Shown: in pieces, positions 18,953-28,280 of the stretch
How the letters are laid out: each line of letters opens with the position of its first letter
Numbering within the stretch: position 1 is the stretch's first letter
Translations under genes and position numbers: made by a program
Notes under the pieces: generated by a model
Databases searched by the model: none
What the model was told of the DNA's origin: nothing
What the model saw: the letters and a program-made list of their open reading frames with translations, nothing else
NCBI GenBank assembly: GCA_016744905.1
Contig: JADGDM010000026.1
Span: 2,539 to 34,892, forward strand
Reading direction: 5' to 3'
DNA: 32,354 nt
Source: Sulfurimonadaceae bacterium
GTDB taxonomy: Bacteria > Campylobacterota > Campylobacteria > Campylobacterales > Sulfurimonadaceae

Positions 18953-27620
<8,668 letters not shown>

Positions 27621-27675
27621 TTAATAAATGTAAATTGAAAATTGAGTAAGTAGTTACGTTTACTACTTAGGTAAG

Positions 27676-27696
27676 TGTCTCAGGCGTCCCTGAACA
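27676..27696 (-). promoter_or_regulatory. small hairpin upstream of rpoB
   Basis: TCAGG-CGTC-CCTGA (27680-27693), extended by TGT/ACA with one bulged base, in the rpoB leader. A further CCACT/AGTGG pairing (27699-27721) lies next to it. Function unknown. Confidence 0.35.
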
Positions 27697-27728
27697 GACC
27701 ACTAGTGAAAGATGTCAGTGGCTTTTTA

Positions 27729-27781
27729 ACGACAAAAGGGTCATTAATAGAAGTGACTATATCACAACTATTAATGACCCT
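27729..27781 (-). terminator. attenuator-like hairpin between rplL and rpoB
   Basis: A perfect 14-base-pair stem, AGGGTCATTAATAG (27737-27750) and CTATTAATGACCCT (27768-27781), is topped by an AA/AA internal loop and a GTGA/TCAC stem. On the minus strand it is followed by TTTTGTCGTT, a short T-tract. It lies between the abundant L7/L12 gene and rpoB, where E. coli has both an attenuator and an RNase III cleavage site. Either role fits: partial termination before rpoBC, or processing of the long dsRNA stem. Confidence 0.65.
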
Positions 27782-27788
27782 GAGGTCA

Positions 27789-27810
27789 TGAGAAAGCAGA
27801 TGCTTTCTCA
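27789..27810 (-). terminator. second hairpin after rplL
   Basis: A perfect inverted repeat TGAGAAAGCA-GA-TGCTTTCTCA about 23 bases after the rplL stop; the working loop is AGAT. There is no T-tract, so it is more likely to protect the 3' end of the rplJL message than to terminate. Confidence 0.45.
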
Positions 27811-27832
27811 AGTAAATATTAATTAGTAAAAA

Positions 27833-28204
27833 CTATTTAACTTCTACAGATGCACCAGCTTCTTCTAAAGTAGCTTTAGTTGCTTCGGCAGTATCTTTAT
27901 CAACACCTTCTTGAAGTGCTGTAGGACAACCGTCTACTGCAGCTTTTGCTTCTTTAAGACCTAAACCAGTAATAGCACGAACTGCTTTAATTACATTGAT
28001 TTTTTTCTCGCCAGCACCCGTAAGGATAACATCAAATTCAGTTTGCTCAGCAGCTCCACCAGCGTCGCCGCCAGCAGCACCAGCAACAGCAACAGGCTGT
28101 GCAGATACACCAAATTTTTCTTCAAATTCTTTTACTAACTCAGATAATTCTAACACAGAAAGGTTAGAGATAAATTCTAATACGTCTTCTTTAGTTGTAG
28201 CCAT
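27833..28204 (-). CDS. rplL: 50S ribosomal protein L7/L12
   Basis: Stalk protein, present in several copies per ribosome, that recruits translation GTPases. 123 residues: N-terminal dimerisation helices (about 5-31), an alanine/glycine-rich hinge (36-53) and the globular C-terminal domain with [20 protein letters not shown] (68-87). AGGAG lies about 8 bases before the ATG. Downstream lie two strong hairpins before rpoB, consistent with more rplL than rpoB mRNA. Confidence 0.98.
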
Positions 28205-28235: not shown

Positions 28236-28280
28236 AACAAAATTCTTTCTACTACGTTAGCAGTATGCTAACATTTTGTT
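28236..28280 (-). promoter_or_regulatory. compound hairpin between rplJ and rplL
   Basis: AACAAAAT (28236-28243) pairs with ATTTTGTT (28273-28280), and inside it GTTAGCA pairs with TGCTAAC around a 3-base loop (28256-28272), leaving a 12-base one-sided bulge. A smaller TCTGT/ACAGA stem follows at 28283-28295. It lies in the 116-base rplJ-rplL gap and could affect the ratio of L12 to L10 made from one message; this is inference. Confidence 0.4.

Follow-up and report, generated by a model that had tools for sequence, protein, structure and literature searches.

A conserved, family-specific structured RNA between rplL and rpoB in Sulfurimonadaceae

The junction between rplL and rpoB is the textbook place where bacteria uncouple the output of ribosomes and RNA polymerase, which raises the question of what the RNA between these genes does in a Sulfurimonadaceae genome. 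Our window, the whole 32,354-nucleotide stretch analysed here, comes from a 3.0 Mb genome that is closest, among named relatives, to Sulfurimonas and Sulfuricurvum, and its own genus is represented by one genome in the comparison set. The minus strand carries nusG, rplK, rplA, rplJ, rplL and rpoB in that order, and the two hairpins reported by an initial annotation of the sequence do lie between rplL and rpoB on the transcript strand. A 1512-aa ORF that follows rpoB (18953-23491) is probably rpoC, and the two frames overlap by 26 bases (23466-23491); in a neighbouring family (f2), rpoB/rpoC frames of ~2,600-2,930 aa look as if rpoB and rpoC were fused. A terminator-like hairpin is also present on the plus strand of the rplJ-rplL spacer (28256-28272). 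The junction itself, in transcript order, is laid out below.

27833-28204, minus strand: rplL, ribosomal protein L7/L12, the gene upstream of the spacer (TIGR00855, 149.3 bits)
27612-27832, minus strand: rplL-rpoB spacer, 221 nt
27789-27810, minus strand: P1, hairpin of 9 bp with a 4-nt loop, starting 22 nt past the rplL stop; its sequence varies in relatives (folding, shuffles)
27737-27781, minus strand: P2, long hairpin of 14 bp, a 2x2 internal loop and 5 bp, the core of the element (folding, covariation)
27723-27736, minus strand: linker UUUGUCGUUAAAAA, kept around GUCGUU in most of 44 aligned relatives (alignment A1)
27698-27722, minus strand: P3, CCAC/GUGG hairpin with a conserved 13-nt loop (comparison of 13 sequences)
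27679-27694, minus strand: P4, hairpin with a GACG tetraloop (tetraloop survey, covariation)
27647-27669, minus strand: P5, 8-bp hairpin ahead of the ribosome-binding site (2/200 shuffles as good)
27609-27622, minus strand: putative ribosome-binding site (AAAGG) and rpoB ATG, outside the hairpins in the MFE fold
23466-27611, minus strand: rpoB, downstream of the spacer

The predicted folding energy of the whole spacer is -67.7 kcal/mol, compared with a mean of -37.5 in shuffles (z -8.9; 0/200 shuffles as good), and the two hairpins noted earlier, P1 and P2, are part of a larger element that continues through the linker, P3, P4 and P5. The 14-bp perfect stem of the initial annotation corresponds to the 14 contiguous pairs of P2, which are followed by the internal loop and five more pairs; the accompanying T-tract exists but is short, UUUU and then GUCG (27737-27730). 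The second hairpin, described as having 10 bp, is P1, which we count as 9 pairs since a 10th would leave a loop of 2 nt. P1 reaches -11.7 kcal/mol and P2, folded alone without its outermost A-U pair, reaches -26.0 kcal/mol (z -8.7), with 0/200 shuffles as good in either case. For the P4 piece (27676-27696), 6/200 shuffles are as good. Taken by itself, P3 does not fold better in the window than expected by chance (a shuffle fraction of 0.2; z +0.4 for a 27-nt piece without its first two bases).

Comparison with relatives indicates that this fold is under selection. The window and 112 loci, three of which are the window's own site, made up a set of 113 sequences. Of these, 109 yielded an rplL-rpoB spacer, 83 of them distinct, and four loci were without rplL; the addition of 20 more divergent family loci brought the collection to 100 distinct family spacers. 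By eye, these share a layout in which P1, which varies, is followed by a long P2, the conserved linker and then P4. A stem of at least 14 pairs occurs in 97/100 family spacers and in 0.00 of 1000 shuffles, and in 84/100 a hairpin located between rplL and P2 is better than shuffles (p<=0.05), while in 16/100 it is not. A hairpin with a GACG or GAUG loop on at least 3 pairs was found 3' of P2 in 92/100, while L005, L012, L016, L022, L117, L127, L129 and L132 failed this rule and were excluded from the alignment. From the 92, we chose 44 diverse sequences for alignment A1.

Across the P2 and P4 pairs of A1, 93.2% of 1216 cells are standard pairs (75.0% shuffled) and 226 cells have changes on both sides (63.5 shuffled), counts that take the relatives as independent and come from stems located by pairing, which favours paired cells. 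Both-side changes with pairing kept occur at 25/28 pairs compared with 16.1 in shuffles, and the covariation score is 0.536 compared with 0.199. None of 500 shuffles attains any of these measures, and structures slid along the alignment stay at or below 50.7% paired and a score of 0.104. P2 alone changes on both sides at 17/20 pair positions and P4 at 8/8; P2 retains ~20 bp while its letters change. RNAalifold, unaided, recovers both hairpins with 26 pairs, 23 of them with both-side changes. These compensatory changes, in excess of both the shuffled and the slid controls, mark the element as conserved structured RNA. The initial annotation had made its reading depend on stem-preserving substitutions in relatives, and they are abundant here; the hairpins that it placed at the junction where E. 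coli has an attenuator and an RNase III site belong to a selected RNA structure, as covariation in 44 relatives shows. In addition, G-U cells outnumber C-A cells in the 28 pairs by 97 to 22, and by 72 to 22 when a single position with G-U in 25 sequences is left aside, indicating that selection acts on the strand of the rplL-rpoB transcript.

Not all parts of the element are free in sequence. The linker is commonly UUAUGUCGUUUAUAAGCACU in Sulfurimonas and UUUUGUCGUUAAAAAGCCACU in the window (by eye), and its G52, C54, G55, T56 and T57 (numbered on the window row) are nearly invariant in A1. The invariant G, A and G of the P4 loop are partly a product of construction, as members of A1 were chosen by a GA(C/T)G loop, and we therefore compared every tetraloop without that rule. 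A GACG tetraloop on at least 5 contiguous pairs 3' of P2 is present in 90/100 spacers and 1/2000 shuffles, the next commonest tetraloop reaching 9/100; the loop is AGUA or AGUG in L005 and L012. P3 with its conserved loop occurs in 13 sequences from six genera, that of the window included, and is different in Sulfurimonas proper (by eye). Its covariation is weak: both-side changes are found at 2/5 pairs, each in a single sequence, and 22/500 shuffles do as well. The best hairpin between P2 and P4 reaches p<=0.1 in 22/92 relatives, and the best one 3' of P4 does so in 53/92. Spacers of 335-424 nt with extra inverted repeats between P4 and rpoB occur in two genera (L016, L128, L130, L131, L218-L220, L223 and L224).

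Two further interactions were considered and rejected. A pseudoknot pairing the GACG loop with YGUC of the linker, suggested by eye, is contradicted by L100, L104 and L109, which retain the loop without the linker partner, and by L005 and L012, in which the linker persists but the loop does not. A CsrA site, the motif of which is GGA in a loop, does not describe the P4 loop, where many members carry AGACG.

A covariance model of the element, R1, matches 133/151 family genomes in 17/18 genera (E<=0.01), with one or two matches per matching genome. Among the matches listed, every second one overlaps the first on the opposite strand, because P2 is palindromic, and the window's own genome likewise holds a single site with no further copies. 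The match is flanked by rplL and rpoB in 37/37 loci examined, the best-scoring ones, and at the fetched family loci a sense-strand match was found in 96/97 sources (95 and L127), model-building loci included. Nine of the 18 family genomes without a match are also without an identified rpoB start. When inspected, three others (G034, G048 and G054, with loci L218-L220) prove to have P1, a long P2 and P3, together with a weak GGACG hairpin, so R1 misses divergent members. As for individual genomes, the contig of G059 stops 18 bases upstream of rpoB, G091 could not be parsed, and G097 and G144 have no usable rpoB start; G049 (L127) keeps P2 with a changed P4 and a marginal match (E 0.0011), and G016 (L129) carries a reduced hairpin only, without P4. 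A class-wide draw gave matches in 26/298 genomes, every one in the same family. With filters off, R1 found nothing better than E = 0.1 in 41 loci (40 from other Campylobacterota families and E. coli). Plasmid records gave no match. In the genomes searched, the P2-P4 element is restricted to Sulfurimonadaceae. One contig labelled 'Gammaproteobacteria' (L057) encodes an rpoB 90% identical to that of the window genome over 200 aa, and this bin is probably mislabelled or mixed.

Other Campylobacterota families have their own structures at this boundary. A hairpin within 60 nt of the rplL stop beats shuffles in 30/40 spacers outside the family, and a stem of at least 14 pairs is present in 11/40 compared with 0.00 of 400 shuffles (e.g. 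L136, L139, L144 and L194, with differing sequences). The remaining 29/40 have no long stem, and the order therefore does not need one. The arrangement of a hairpin followed by a long duplex recurs in part of the order, and the P2-P4 element is found in one family only. In one other family (L136, L137 and L202 of a single genus, and L192), the rplL-rpoB hairpin has 18-27 bp, with AGCAUC...GAUGCU in one genus, and is unmatched by R1 at E<=0.01.

The element apparently is an undescribed, family-specific structured RNA, as no Rfam family matches it and no description was found in a full-text search of the open-licence PMC literature. At gathering score, Rfam 15 gave no match in the spacer or in 14 other Campylobacterota loci, and elsewhere in the window it found two tRNAs only; at relaxed E (up to E<=5 for the window), there were only sub-threshold matches to unrelated families, four in the window and two in seven other loci. 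As a positive control, the E. coli rplL-rpoB region matches Rfam P26 (RF00630) at 74.5 bits. Neither P26 nor Lacto-rpoB (RF01709) matches the window or the 14 other loci. Lacto-rpoB RNA sits before rpoB. It is comparable in being an order-restricted candidate structured RNA named after rpoB, and differs in being listed for Lactobacillales (PMC2864571). Leaders of the L10(L12)4 type are structured RNAs in the same operon (PMC10931766), but are located before rplJ, and Rfam finds none of them in the window.

The E. coli junction is a close parallel. It shares with ours the operon position, a hairpin soon after rplL, the same dosage problem and, in E. coli itself, reported RNase III action. The element probably works like the E. 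coli junction without belonging to its family. There is no detectable similarity between the two: R1 scores E = 3.1 on E. coli, and P26 matches E. coli and 0/14 Campylobacterota loci, in agreement with the initial annotation, which held the sequences to be unrelated. They also differ in that the E. coli hairpin at spacer position 40-65 runs into UUUUU, while the hairpins of the window have no such tail. The Rfam family 'Pseudomonas sRNA P26' covers 62 nt directly after rplL in E. coli (L210, 931-992) and overlaps the attenuator hairpin there; judged by this overlap, the P26 'sRNA' may be the E. coli rplL-rpoB attenuator.

The spacer is probably a built-in cutting or control site through which the cell can produce the two proteins in different amounts. 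Our preferred reading, held tentatively, is that the conserved RNA separates the rplL and rpoB messages after transcription. RNase III, or a different double-strand nuclease, would cut the long duplex of P2. Upstream of the cut, P1 would shield the 3' end of the rplJ-rplL mRNA from exonucleases; downstream, P3-P5 would become the 5' leader of the rpoBC mRNA, in which the GACG hairpin P4 would be a likely contact for a protein. The two halves would then decay and be translated at different rates. P2 has the structure of an RNase III site, a near-perfect predicted duplex of ~20 bp (14+5) maintained by covariation, and a duplex of this length with changing letters fits an enzyme that recognises the duplex. 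The window genome encodes RNase III (TIGR02191, 245.6 bits), and P2, as a long duplex, is a plausible substrate. The transcript-strand bias, the fixed position, the presence of the long stem throughout nearly all family spacers and the long stems at the same place in 11/40 spacers of other families point the same way, and PMC2777011, which credits Barry et al. 1980, includes E. coli rplL-rpoB among the substrates of RNase III. Against this reading, 20-bp duplexes also serve as terminators or binding sites, and the conserved sequence of the linker and the GACG loop is unneeded for cleavage alone. The outside spacers without a long stem, the 16/100 family spacers in which P1 is not above shuffles, and G016, with its reduced hairpin and no P4, also weigh against it.

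It is unlikely that the junction is a leaky transcription attenuator of the E. coli kind, with P1 (and in the window perhaps P2) ending a share of the transcripts and thereby lowering the amount of RNA that extends into rpoB. PMC4670729 places the E. coli attenuator at the same junction, and the hairpin soon after rplL that beats shuffles in most spacers inside and outside the family would suit such a role. The tails are a poorer fit, and they weaken the attenuator-like character that the initial annotation had given these hairpins. In the window, P1 is followed by UGACCUCA, with 2 U of 8, and P2 by UUUUGUCG, four U and then mixed sequence, so that a GC-rich stem directly followed by a U-run is absent, and no U-run is conserved in relatives. 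P1 tails with at least 4 U of 8 are hardly enriched, at 53/100 family spacers compared with 0.35 of shuffles and 19/40 outside spacers compared with 0.43 (a tally of 77/100 for the family includes P2 tails). The P2 tail is UUAUGUCG in 59/100 family spacers and AUACGUCG, the Sulfuricurvum form, in 6/100, both of them poor tails and the former not a U-run. Good P1 U-tails do exist in some relatives, 5/100 in all; L027 and L125, each with 6 U of 8, are among them. Some relatives may thus terminate transcription here, but termination is not the conserved property; conservation extends to a ~20-bp duplex of free sequence, the linker and a tetraloop of specific sequence whose stem is free to vary.

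The conserved linker and sequence-specific tetraloop suggest a bound protein, and this leads to an alternative that we also regard as improbable, namely an autogenous site made up of P3-P4 and the linker, where a bound protein (RNA polymerase beta/beta', L10-L12 or another factor) would set rpoBC translation or readthrough. The near-universal GACG tetraloop atop a freely covarying stem and the P3 loop conserved in six genera are consistent with such a site, and PMC10931766 states a separate autogenous control of E. coli rpoBC. However, the MFE fold leaves the ribosome-binding site free, and the loop is replaced in L005 and L012. Moreover, a GACG-loop hairpin with at least 4 pairs is absent from six 16S/23S loci of two relatives (the window's own genome yielded no rRNA), and P4 is therefore no simple rRNA mimic. 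A bolder version, to which we give little credence, is that P3-P4 and the linker are the target of RNA polymerase (beta/beta') or a dedicated factor that would gate P2 as a switchable processing site, providing direct RNA-level feedback on RNA polymerase dosage in Sulfurimonadaceae.

A riboswitch-like exchange, in which a downstream segment would displace P2, is very improbable: a downstream GCACU/GCACUU repeats part of the P2 5' arm and is the longest complement of the 3' arm in 54/100 spacers, but the P2 3' arm is more complementary to the sequence downstream than in shuffles (p<=0.05) in only 2/100, with p = 0.88 in the window. Long palindromes can come from mobile elements, yet a DNA-level or chance inverted repeat without RNA function is scarcely credible here, given the single place in the genome, the covariation, the transcript-strand G-U bias and the fixed gene context.

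The Sulfurimonadaceae element is an RNA conserved through a family, unmatched in Rfam and with no detectable likeness to the E. coli RNA of this junction. Long hairpins of other sequence lie at the same junction in some neighbouring families, and this pattern suggests that RNA devices were invented here more than once. The element offers a compact, testable target for understanding how bacteria other than E. coli set the dosage of RNA polymerase.
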